Assembly: GCF_024505165.1 (NCBI RefSeq)
Contig: NZ_JANIBK010000005.1
Coordinates: forward strand, 1 to 64,000
DNA: 64,000 nt
Direction of reading: 5' to 3'
From: Methylomonas rivi
GTDB taxonomy: Bacteria > Pseudomonadota > Gammaproteobacteria > Methylococcales > Methylomonadaceae
Under the pieces are notes generated by a model that worked only from the letters and a program-made list of their open reading frames with translations, ran no database searches and was not told the DNA's origin. Position numbers and translations under genes: made by a program. Positions 59,537-62,727 of this stretch are shown in pieces (positions within the stretch are counted from its first letter, which is position 1; each line of letters starts with the position of its first letter).

Positions 59537-61000
59537 TTATTTCACGGGAGGTACTCCGCCCCTTCTACCTAAGCCATAACCAACTCTATAAACATCGGGA
59601 AGATTGATTCTGCCATCGCGTTTTATTTCGAAGATGCCTAAGTCAACTAAATCTTGCTTGACGCCCGATGGGCCTTGATCGAGGCGACTTGGAGGAAGTT
59701 TTACCGTGTTTTCGTCTGTATTACGTAAGCGATCAGTTAAAGTAATTAGGGTATTTTGTTCTTCCCATTTTTCTGCTATCGATTCAAATGGACAAGGTAC
59801 GCTTAATCCCTTTAATGGACCTATTAGCAAATGAACCCACGGATAGTCTTCTTTGAATTCTTCAACACGGATTTTTGAGGCTTCTTGCACACCTTTTTTG
59901 ATAGCCTGATATTGCAAAGGGTGTTTCTGGTCCTTAATTAAGTTGGCCGTAGCGGCCTCGCTCAGGGCAGTAAGAAAGCTTCTGGGGCTAACTTTGCCGT
60001 GAGCGTCGCCAAGGTGATTAGGTAACCAAATATATGGAAAACCCCGTTTTGCATTTGGCCCCATCCATTCTCCAGCTAGTGCATGGAATATGTTTCGCTG
60101 TAGTTTTTCATCCTTTTGCATTTCTTCCGGAATAATCCAAATATTAAATTTCTGATATTGTTTCCAATGCTGGTTGAAAAAGCGTGCACACTCATCTCTA
60201 AATTCTTGGCCGCCTGTTGATGCATTACCCAAGTATTGCCATAAAAGATTAAAAAGTTCTATCTTAGTCCAGTCTAACTTAGCGGAATTATTGGTTAATT
60301 TCGAGCTGTCTGGGAAGTTGGTGACATAAGGGTCTTCCAGCATGTCCGGTCTTACAAATATCTTTAATCGAATGGCTCGATAAGATCGAAAATCCAGGCC
60401 AACCTGAAGCAAGCCTTTTAATATTTGTCTCAAATAATTCCAAGAGTCAGAGGTGCGTTCTAAAGCATCAAATAAAATAACTGCCTTTCTGTTTTTGGTA
60501 ACAAGCTCGTTATCAAGATCAAGTAATTGGTTGTCAATGGCTTCGAAATGGGTTTGGTAATAAGTTATCCGATCTTGCCATGAACTGAGTTTCGGCGGGA
60601 AATATTTCGTATCAAGTAATGACCAGGCAATTACCGTTCGCCATATTATTTGTGCTGAAATGTTTTTGCCTAGAAGGTCTTCAAATACCCGTTTAGTTGG
60701 ATAGCGCTTATCGTTGGGGGCGCCAAAGCCTACATAGCAATCAATTTTGCCCAACTCAGCCCTAGGCGAAAGTTCTGAAACCAATTCACGAAGATCGGGA
60801 TTTTGCAACTCTTTCCACCATTCACTTTTTCCCGAGCCTCTAATGCCGACCACTAAGACATTATCGGGGTGTAAGGCTTTTGCATGATTAGATGGAACGT
60901 AAAAATAACGCATGTCGATTGCTTCATTGCCAGAATTATGGGCTTGTTCTGGCAATACCGAAAATGCTTGGCGAAGAGGATCAATGGAAAAACTTTTCAT
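59537..61000 (-). CDS. P-loop NTPase, third gene of the mnmA-purB accessory cassette
   Basis: A 487-residue protein with Walker A '[12 protein letters not shown]' (51-62), a likely Walker B '[14 protein letters not shown]' (171-184) and an arginine-bearing segment '[15 protein letters not shown]' that could be a sensor. The rest is helical; the C-terminal 80 residues ('[25 protein letters not shown]') look like a winged helix. No signal peptide or span. It resembles STAND/KAP-like signalling ATPases in layout, but I cannot name a family with certainty. Its ATG directly follows the stop of the preceding ATPase (TAAATG), so it is translated from the same message. It is more AT-rich than purB and mnmA, consistent with horizontal gain. 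Confidence 0.75.
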
Positions 61001-62296
61001 TTAAATGTACTCTCCTAAAACAAGTAGAGTCGCGGATTGTAAAAAATTACCGTAACACGCGCTTATCTGATTGCCATTGATTTTGAAATAATCTTCGACT
61101 TGAGGGTTAAATTCTTGAAACACTATGTTCCACAAAATTTCTATCGGGTAATGAGGGGCTGTATCGTCGCTGGGTTGAAAATTAAAATTATCAATATCTT
61201 CTGCATCCGATGTTTCATAAATGGTTTCTGAAAATAGATCGTAAGCGGATTCTTTGCAACGAGAGAGATAATCTTCACGGCCTAGCTCGGGGATGATTCC
61301 AGCGACAATTTTTAAGTTTTCCCGAAATTTTGTTAGGTTAACATTCCATTTCTGCCAGTGCGTAAATAAATGCCGATAAGCCAGCCAAGTTTGCGGCGTA
61401 TTGACTGCAAATAAAAAAGCCATGTCCGTCAAGCGGGTAATGGCAATGGCGGCAATGTCGTGAATACCGGCACGGCTATCCAATAGAACAATATCGGGTT
61501 TTTCTTGGACTTCGAGTTGCTGTAATAAATTAGAAATTCGGTGAGCGAAGTCCAATATTTTGCCATCCTGATTGATGTCCATATAAACTCTGGATAGTTT
61601 GGCAATATAATCCTGTTCTTTGCTTCCAGCGGCAGATACTACCCGTATAGTACCTTCAGTTGTTTCCGCTAACGGACTGGTGGCGACCATGTCGCGCAAC
61701 AACCATTCGTCGGTTTGGCCGACCGCTTCTTCCACTAACCAATCGACCACGCCGAAGTCTGCGGTGTTTTCTTGCGGCAACAGAATTTGACCTATGCCCG
61801 GCGATTCCAAGTCCAGATCGATAACTAATACCTTTTTGCCTTGTTTCGCCAAATACCATGACCAAATCGCGAGCGCAGTCGAGCGGCCGACGCCGCCTTT
61901 GATGCCGAATAAGGTAACCCTGGGCGGATGGGGTGCTTCTTCAATAGGTTGGCGCAGCCAGTCTTGGCCGGTGATTTGTCTATCCAGTAAGTAGATAGGC
62001 CGATCCGTGCCGTGAATGAGTATCTTATCCGGTGACTCGATAATACTTCGACTATTGAAAATGTCTTGTTGATATAAAAAAATGACGTCTGGAGTATAAG
62101 AAAAATTGCCCAATAATGTACTGAGCTCTTTTGCCAATATTTTATGTTGGTCGGTTTGATTTGATTGCAAAAATAACCGGACTTTGCCGAACAAATCGCG
62201 AATCAATATCGGGTCGTAACCTAAAGCATTATAGTGTTCTTCAGTAAAAGCGATAGCTTTAGTTAAGGCATCCTGAAATCTGACAGTATTGTTCAT
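61001..62296 (-). CDS. MinD/ParA-like ATPase with KGGVGR Walker A variant, second gene of the cassette
   Basis: A 431-residue protein. The first 125 residues form a separate helical domain without motifs I recognise. Then comes a deviant Walker A 'FGIKGGVGRSTAL' (130-142) in which the usual K-T is replaced by R-S, an A' motif 'VLVIDLDLESPGIG' and a Walker B-like 'IVLLDSRAGIHD' (269-280). The signature lysine (in K-G-G) that makes ParA-type dimers work is kept. Such KGGVGR variants form a distinct group of ATPases in variable loci. Start ATG 62296 overlaps the stop of the preceding small gene by four bases (ATGA). Confidence 0.82.
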   Translation of the reverse strand: MNNTVRFQDALTKAIAFTEEHYNALGYDPILIRDLFGKVRLFLQSNQTDQHKILAKELSTLLGNFSYTPDVIFLYQQDIFNSRSIIESPDKILIHGTDRPIYLLDRQITGQDWLRQPIEEAPHPPRVTLFGIKGGVGRSTALAIWSWYLAKQGKKVLVIDLDLESPGIGQILLPQENTADFGVVDWLVEEAVGQTDEWLLRDMVATSPLAETTEGTIRVVSAAGSKEQDYIAKLSRVYMDINQDGKILDFAHRISNLLQQLEVQEKPDIVLLDSRAGIHDIAAIAITRLTDMAFLFAVNTPQTWLAYRHLFTHWQKWNVNLTKFRENLKIVAGIIPELGREDYLSRCKESAYDLFSETIYETSDAEDIDNFNFQPSDDTAPHYPIEILWNIVFQEFNPQVEDYFKINGNQISACYGNFLQSATLLVLGEYI

Positions 62297-62727
62297 TGAA
62301 TAACTCCGTCAGTAAATAATTGTTGCAATAAGTTCTGTAGGCTTATGGTTATCGAACGATGCACTGCAGTCCGTTGTTGATCAATGCAATTATCATGAAC
62401 ATAGCGTTGAAAAATGTCCCAATCACTAAATTCATTGTTATTCGGTAATGGGTGATTCGCCGCTAATCGTCCGGCAAAGTTTATGGAAAAATAATTCCAT
62501 AAATCTTTGGTAACGTCTTGGTCGAAATGTTTTCGATGACTCTTTGTTTTAAAGTCGCCAGTTGATGACTCGACGCTGGCTGGATCAAGGCCGGAAATGA
62601 TTCGCTTTAAAACACACTCAGACGACAAACCATAAAGTTGATCTGCATTAGCCCATCGCGAGTTGTCGTAGAGCAACTCGGCATCGAAATAATGGCGTTG
62701 AGCGGCATTGTTGAAATCGACTTTCAT
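62293..62727 (-). CDS. HEPN-like small protein, first gene of the cassette
   Basis: A 144-residue, probably all-helical protein. 'AAQRHYFDAELLYDNSRWANADQLYG' and 'LSSECVLKRIISG' match the first two helices of HEPN-type proteins (pattern 'RHxxDAxxL...A...xGxxxECxLK'). The R-x4-6-H nuclease motif typical of active HEPN RNases is not clear; 'RTAVH' has only three residues between R and H. It could therefore be a sensor or scaffold and not a nuclease. Its ATG overlaps the mnmA stop by one base (TAATG), so it is read straight on from a housekeeping gene. Confidence 0.68.
   Translation of the reverse strand: MKVDFNNAAQRHYFDAELLYDNSRWANADQLYGLSSECVLKRIISGLDPASVESSTGDFKTKSHRKHFDQDVTKDLWNYFSINFAGRLAANHPLPNNNEFSDWDIFQRYVHDNCIDQQRTAVHRSITISLQNLLQQLFTDGVIQ

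Follow-up and report, generated by a model that had tools for sequence, protein, structure and literature searches.

The phage defence candidates (PDCs) listed by PADLOC derive from a guilt-by-embedding survey, that is, from their embedding within known defence systems, according to the part of PMC12988326 that deals with their origin. HEPN proteins of the AbiV/AF0298-like group typically lack the motif histidine, keep the basic residue and hold a conserved histidine between helices 2 and 3, and an Ex3[KR] motif is common to many HEPN families, as described in passages of PMC3710099; the title of PDB entry 9bj6 calls AbiV the RNase of a two-component antiphage system. Here we analysed a stretch of 64,000 nucleotides from Methylomonas rivi (contig NZ_JANIBK010000005.1, positions 1 to 64,000; the window), in which three adjacent genes between mnmA and purB encode a HEPN-like protein (A), a ParA/MinD-like ATPase (B) and a P-loop NTPase (C). 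Judged by sequence comparison, the cassette is almost certainly PDC-M28, a listed phage defence candidate, and the main point of interest is its mechanism.

Each protein matched its PADLOC counterpart over nearly its full length: A matched PDC-M28A (126.8 bits, E 1.9e-37), B matched PDC-M28B (510.2 bits, E 1.3e-153) and C matched PDC-M28C (575 bits, E 3.1e-173). The genes are adjacent and follow the A-B-C order of PDC-M28. An earlier note, made from the sequence alone, had called the cassette undescribed and had found no named system for it; this part does not stand, as PADLOC-DB 2.0.0 (2023) already lists the trio. A search of the open literature found no paper on PDC-M28, KGGVGR or Sll1717, and in the main text of PMC12839542 ParA, SIMIBI, KGGVGR and PDC were not mentioned as whole words.

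The layout was as the earlier note had described it: in the gap between mnmA and purB, three open reading frames (ORFs) directly follow one another (Table 1). A and B overlap by 4 bases, the stop codon of B abuts the start of C (TAAATG), and the trio is richer in AT than both flanks (GC content 0.420, compared with 0.541 for mnmA and 0.553 for purB). Absent from that description was that the stop codon of mnmA and the start codon of A have one base in common (TAATG), because of which A may be co-transcribed with mnmA. An Rfam search of the window gave no match.

Table 1. Coordinates of the cassette and its borders within the window
Feature	Position	Strand	Length	Basis
A: HEPN-fold protein, PDC-M28A	62293..62727	-	144 aa	profile match, model, invariant residues
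B: KGGVGR-variant ParA/MinD-like ATPase, PDC-M28B	61001..62296	-	431 aa	profile matches
C: STAND/Orc-Cdc6-like P-loop NTPase, PDC-M28C, NCBIfam Sll1717 family	59537..61000	-	487 aa	profiles, model
mnmA: upstream border of variable slot	62727..63824	-		
purB: downstream border of variable slot	58111..59478	-		

Genomic context, namely a variable defence slot together with copies inside or near defence operons, supports a defence or conflict role, and such a role, which the earlier note had proposed, is very likely. On three plasmids the trio was found inside BREX-2 operons, between pglX and PglY in Thiodictyon and Sphaerotilus and between pglW and pglX in Streptomyces; PADLOC confirmed PglY/BrxC twice and PglX once. 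Two further loci, L068 and L071, have a DUF1156 methyltransferase on one side of the trio and a PLD helicase on the other, identified by PADLOC in L068 and by BLAST in L071. Ten further large neighbours were compared with defence models at 1e-20. Six gave a match, covering in some cases a portion of the protein: SspH (L070), a type I restriction enzyme and a specificity subunit (L074), mad3 (L059), a type I restriction enzyme (L134) and DpdF (L125). The remaining four (one in L073, two in L112, one in L072) had no match to a defence model; as the ten were picked by size, these numbers are not an unbiased rate. The trio is thus beside or near type I restriction-modification (R-M) genes in L074 and L134, and adjoins the specificity gene in L074. 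Integrase genes adjoin three plasmid copies. Embedding of the kind on which the survey relied was found in five relatives (L046, L049, L053, L068, L071). The window copy lacks such embedding and shares its slot position with Septu of sister species. The window copy was rejected as part of a BREX-2 system, its flanks being mnmA and purB instead of PglW, PglX, PglY or PglZ.

The arrangement of the trio is conserved. Among 51 non-viral C loci, 44 contained A and B, on one strand throughout, and the order was A-B-C in 43, which argues against a chance arrangement of ORFs. These counts are conditional on loci having been gathered by B or C searches, and one short C fragment (G654) was left out. L070, the one locus with another gene order, seems to have suffered an internal deletion. 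Seven loci lacked A or B as called: five in which C stands alone in the stretch read (L056, L057, L058, L102, L118), L069, which runs into a contig end, and L115, where A lies in a disrupted frame; of the 44, L106 has a stop inside A and L117 a C split in two.

The trio was sporadic in its distribution. A single-protein scan of genome contigs returned one true relative and a short match. Of the 201 family genomes examined, 10 had a full-length B, as did 3 of the 21 in the genus (window included in both). Because MinD/ParA proteins match its P-loop, the B profile gave matches in 201/201 family genomes and 14/14 controls, and only those with E < 1e-140 were counted; the next row (8.1e-34) covered the core only. 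In samples of 369 genomes from the class and 398 from the phylum, C was detected in 8 and 20, respectively (its own genome counted in both), and in 0/14 controls. Twenty plasmid records matched C, and the 13 fetched came from Pseudomonadota, Actinomycetota and one cyanobacterium. No match to C was found in 50,697 phage records. The complete trio is present in 12 IMG/VR contigs (two of them, L119 and L124, near-identical), and PHROGs matches among 70 pooled neighbours from 11 of these contigs include integrase (3), terminase large subunit (2), NinB (2) and portal (1). The PADLOC matches shown for the same neighbours include type II methyltransferase (2), a type I restriction enzyme and a type I specificity subunit, as well as PDC-M41B, PDC-M30B and DpdF.

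The gap between mnmA and purB holds different cargo in different genomes. In 22 same-genus genomes (L153-L188), all of which gave an mnmA match, the slot contained Septu in six, PDC-M38 in three, PDC-S57 in two, a presumed toxin-antitoxin pair in two and the trio in one (the window); it was empty in six, with gaps of 36-158 bp, and in the remaining two (L184, L185) the stretch read did not show mnmA and purB as neighbours. PADLOC identified PtuA (3.6e-125), PtuB (2.5e-76), PDC-M38A (1.8e-137) and PDC-S57 (2.9e-79); it was applied to two Septu, one PDC-M38 and one PDC-S57 cargo, and the other members were assigned by BLAST to these. One Septu copy (L168) shows PtuA only, as the contig ends there. 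The presumed RelE and helix-turn-helix antitoxin pair was read by eye; its second gene matched HTH_VI (4.5e-8) and its first gave no PADLOC or NCBIfam match. Behind this pair in one genome lies a gene of 456 aa (L181:1417-2787, minus strand), possibly an unlisted defence gene, for which neither PADLOC nor NCBIfam gave a match at 1e-5.

Five more genomes of the family carry the trio in this slot (L062-L066, gaps of 3200-3218 bp), and in these and the window nothing else lies between mnmA and purB. For the four remaining family copies (L059, L060, L061, L067) neither mnmA nor purB was seen in the stretch read, L061 being a 6-kb contig. The trio was probably gained independently, since B of L059, from the same genus, is 36 percent identical to window B, against 71-77 percent for slot copies from other genera. 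In these bacteria the mnmA-purB gap, possibly a general hotspot, is a place to look for further defence systems.

Within the slot the modules appear to differ in their histories. Across the six slot copies, percent identity was 84-94 for mnmA, 79-94 for purB, 31-69 for A, 70-81 for B and 50-81 for C. Window A is near that of L063 (68 percent), whereas for window C the nearest is L064 (67) and L063 is distant (52); L062 and L063 are 94 percent identical in both flanks and share only 38 percent in A and 57 in C. The trees agree with this pattern: window and L063 group together for A (support 1.0), L063 and L066 for C (1.0), and L062 with L063 (0.997) and window with L064 (0.991) for mnmA+purB. 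Residues 1-100 of B track A type (52-69 percent identity within types and 31-52 across, in blocks of 50), against 76-98 for the core. These identities and trees indicate that A and C types are swapped around a conserved B core in the slot.

Protein A had been described as HEPN-like, and its predicted model (pLDDT 82.4, pTM 0.82) did align best with HEPN structures. The top match in VIA-align was AF_0298 (2hsb; Z 12.9, root-mean-square deviation (rmsd) 2.9 over 119 residues), followed by sacsin HEPN (12.4), TT1696 (12.3) and 4nqf (11.9), where Z below about 13 can be common among helical bundles. HEPN appears in the title of five of the first eight rows (not in 1ufb, 2jpu and 2q00), and row 10 is 3mfn, a protein of unknown function (Z 9.0); in Foldseek, seven of the first ten rows were titled HEPN. 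In an alignment of 44 rows, counting those with a letter, R11, G33, E37 and K41 were invariant (43/43), as were H67 (44/44) and R108 and Y109 (41/41). The same invariants were found in 13/13 of a second set (window, L035 and 11 viral-contig proteins). In the model H67 lies between helices 25-47 and 73-88, and R108 precedes the last long helix; a later histidine, H123, is kept in 26/40 rows. Both the Ex3[KR] motif (E37xxxK41) and the alternative histidine (H67) of the AbiV/AF0298 variant are therefore present. With H67 between helices, R108 and E37xxxK41 kept and no conserved Rx4-6H, the modelled A fits a HEPN fold with an AbiV/AF0298-type variant site, and we infer by analogy that A may cleave RNA. 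The statement in the earlier note that the cassette has no obvious nuclease or toxin domain is accordingly doubtful. Separately, an Agrobacterium plasmid copy (L054:1-104) has another gene nearby that is annotated as a HEPN domain protein.

Protein B exceeded the cutoff of the NCBIfam model for KGGVGR-motif variant AAA ATPases (NF047398; 198.7 bits, cutoff 90), and its P-loop KGGVGRS (K133-S139), read in the earlier note as the Walker A motif of a MinD-like ATPase, was kept in relatives, with K133, G134, G135, G137 and R138 in 44/44 rows. D160, D162 and D273-x-R275-A-G277 are also conserved, motifs that are typical of ParA/MinD-type ATPases. The protein consists of a variable N-terminal region of about 110 residues and a conserved P-loop core; matches to the sequences of solved structures were mostly short P-loop matches. 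Other B-like sequences were also seen: a MinD/ParA-like ORF of 257 aa in the window (47046-47819, minus strand), which scored weakly against the B profile (45 bits) and does not belong to the system, and in the same genome two longer ORFs of 716 and 912 aa (G000:C202:1071-1634 and G000:C10:13106-13258; L002, L003), each containing a P-loop stretch like that of B, which may be further KGGVGR proteins.

Protein C, correctly recognised as a P-loop NTPase, exceeded the NCBIfam cutoff for ATPase_Sll1717 (NF047389; 84.8, cutoff 75). G52, G55, G57, K58 and D178 were found in 49/49 rows (L070, L076 and L117 were excluded from the B and C motif alignments), so that Walker A is kept in relatives together with FDxLD/E and R217 (48/49). 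The window protein falls under every Pfam cutoff; in a fused relative (L108) NPHP3_N passes (26.8, cutoff 24.8), with its best stretch at 119-219. No match was found among the sequences of solved structures at E <= 0.1. The model (pLDDT 86.4, pTM 0.85) aligned with 2qen (Z 13.7), 2fna (12.9), CED-4 (12.7), Dark (12.4) and WRR4A (12.2), with rmsd 5.3-6.3 for these five, and with Cdc6 (11.8), the matches to CED-4, Dark and plant NLRs lying at Z of about 11-13 and those to STAND/Orc-Cdc6 proteins at rmsd 5-6.5. Foldseek gave ORC2 (1w5s, 2.4e-5) and BrxC (4.1e-5) as its best matches. C thus models as a STAND/Orc-Cdc6-type NTPase.

Fusions of C were also found. In L116 B and C are joined in one protein of 915 aa, a single case that supports contact of B with C. 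In L107-L110 and L118 C extends into a long fusion with metallophosphoesterase and NACHT domains, identified by Pfam in L108 (Metallophos 3e-15, NACHT 9.6e-12) and judged by eye in L107, L109, L110 and L118; window C has no fused enzyme domain. A repetitive tract rich in ARD/ARY-like repeats was noticed in the fusions of L107, L108 and L110, and in L117 C is in two pieces and runs on into tetratricopeptide repeats. The lone C genes of L056, L057 and L058 are on Streptomyces plasmids, and in L056 and L057 the genes next to C, arranged alike, are ParB-like, replication-relaxation and ATP/GTP-binding ones.

We infer the catalytic activities, signalling order, trigger, RNA target and abortive outcome of PDC-M28 as follows. 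C would act as sensor and oligomerising switch and, upon an infection cue, engage B, the ParA/MinD-like ATPase with the KGGVGR P-loop; an ATP-driven change in B would free or position A, which would cut RNA by its non-classical site (E37, K41, H67, R108), and growth and phage production would stop by abortive infection. In outline, a chain in which C senses, B relays, A cuts RNA and cell arrest limits phage is somewhat favoured. The fuller picture of a tripartite NLR-like abortive-infection machine, with a STAND sensor, a ParA/MinD relay and a HEPN RNase with an AbiV-type site, and with lineages swapping sensor and effector genes in a fixed slot, is put forward tentatively.

Several results weigh against this reading. 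The A and C models were built on 13 sequences each. AbiV structures aligned with A at Z 7.2-7.6, barely over an unrelated design at 7.0; Foldseek found no PDB match to A at E <= 0.001 (best 0.66), and an A profile found no HEPN chain among the sequences of solved structures, its best match being a co-chaperone (E 0.21). A as AbiV proper was rejected, as it scored under the cutoffs of Pfam (PF18728, 16.6 < 27.1) and NCBIfam (TIGR04498, 12.5 < 27). Rx4-6H is absent from the window protein; a histidine follows R108 at +5 to +7 in 3/41 rows, and the motif was found in 1/13 of the second set. Proteasome and p97 AAA+ ATPases are also similar to the C model (Z 9.3-9.7, rmsd 5-7), and all five metallophosphoesterase-NACHT fusions belong to a single genus, represented by four genomes. 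As C stands without A or B in five of 51 loci, it may have a role independent of A. Co-variation of A with the B N-terminus, visible in the six slot copies, was present over 49 loci but not specific (partial r 0.205, compared with 0.202 for A and the B core and 0.276 for A and the C-terminal part of C), and serves as a lead at most; this analysis left out L070, L076, L117, L106, L055, L111 and L112 (broken or partial A, or duplicate), the duplicates L035 and L124, and loci lacking any of the three genes. A and C each show two types in the slot, so that the assignment of C as sensor is tentative. In the slot itself, the two tested Septu pairs were below the NCBIfam cutoffs for PtuA and PtuB.

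Other explanations were weighed on the same evidence. The trio might be a toxin-antitoxin system in which A is a HEPN toxin, B a ParA/Soj-like antitoxin and C an add-on, stabilising itself or its replicon with defence as a secondary effect; passages of PMC3710099 propose such an arrangement for the HEPN family MAE_18760 and a ParA/Soj-like ATPase, and integrases adjoin plasmid copies. This is compatible with a defence role, not exclusive of it, but C occurs without A and B, and addiction alone explains little of the BREX-2, DUF1156/PLD-helicase, R-M and provirus settings, so that we regard it as unlikely. Those same settings could suggest an accessory module dependent on BREX-2, type I R-M or DUF1156/PLD-helicase systems, for example a backup when the main system is blocked, in keeping with three BREX-2 and two DUF1156/PLD-helicase operons that enclose the trio, with the adjoining type I specificity gene, and with the part of PMC12839542 on backup effectors within BREX loci, among which it counts HEPN and other nucleases. 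Dependence of this kind is quite improbable: all six slot copies stand alone, and BREX-2 queries matched 3 of 63 stretches, all three being the sources of the queries.

The reading of A as an RNase can itself be questioned. A could be a nucleic-acid- or nucleotide-binding adaptor and no enzyme, leaving C, with its occasional metallophosphoesterase-NACHT fusion (five loci of one genus), as the effector; A has no conserved Rx4-6H, and HEPN domains lacking catalytic residues exist, as noted in passages of PMC3710099. The invariance of E37, K41, H67 and R108 exceeds what a mere adaptor would lead one to expect, however, and window C carries no fused enzyme, which makes this alternative doubtful. 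Finally, the earlier note had named conservation as a housekeeping unit at the same position across its order as a result that would tell against a defence role. The shared position was found in part, 6 of 10 family copies lying between mnmA and purB, but the slot is variable and family-wide conservation was not found, full-length B being confined to the ten genomes given above; the slot is otherwise empty or filled with other cargo in the genus, GC is low, and A and mostly C are less alike than the flanks in a mosaic pattern. Inheritance of the trio together with mnmA and purB as a housekeeping unit is thus highly implausible, and was rejected on its sporadic distribution and the turnover of the slot.

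Under the preferred chain from C through B to A, PDC-M28 becomes a testable model, with E37, K41, H67 and R108 of A, K133 and D273 of B, K58 and D178 of C and the natural chimeras as points of attack. To our knowledge, a ParA/MinD-type ATPase linking STAND and HEPN proteins would, if true, stand out as unusual among the signalling layouts of bacterial immunity. Added here to what is listed for PDC-M28 are the mnmA-purB slot, the exchange of A and C types, the AbiV-like site in A, the STAND-like model of C, and the B-C and C-metallophosphoesterase-NACHT fusions.

Compared with described systems, A shares with AbiV/AF_0298-type HEPN proteins the HEPN fold, the histidine between helices 2 and 3, the retained arginine and the lack of a conserved Rx4-6H; it differs from AbiV of Lactococcus in falling under the AbiV cutoffs, in its low structural Z (7.2-7.6) and in being partnered by two NTPases. 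The dyad of MAE_18760 HEPN and a ParA/Soj-like ATPase likewise places a small HEPN gene beside a ParA-like gene, but it has two genes and is listed as keeping Rx4-6H in the part of PMC3710099 (Anantharaman et al. 2013) that covers it, a separation drawn by description. Tha, a phage-triggered HEPN RNase of Staphylococcus prophages, resembles the proposed working of the trio, but in the passages of PMC11087260 that describe it Tha is a single protein with a classical RX4H, activated by tail proteins, and NTPase partners are not mentioned. Septu (PtuA/PtuB) is found in sister species in the slot that the trio fills here, between mnmA and purB, and differs in having another ATPase and an HNH nuclease. 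The closest system remains PDC-M28: nothing tested excludes membership, and all three window proteins fit its models with the gene order kept.

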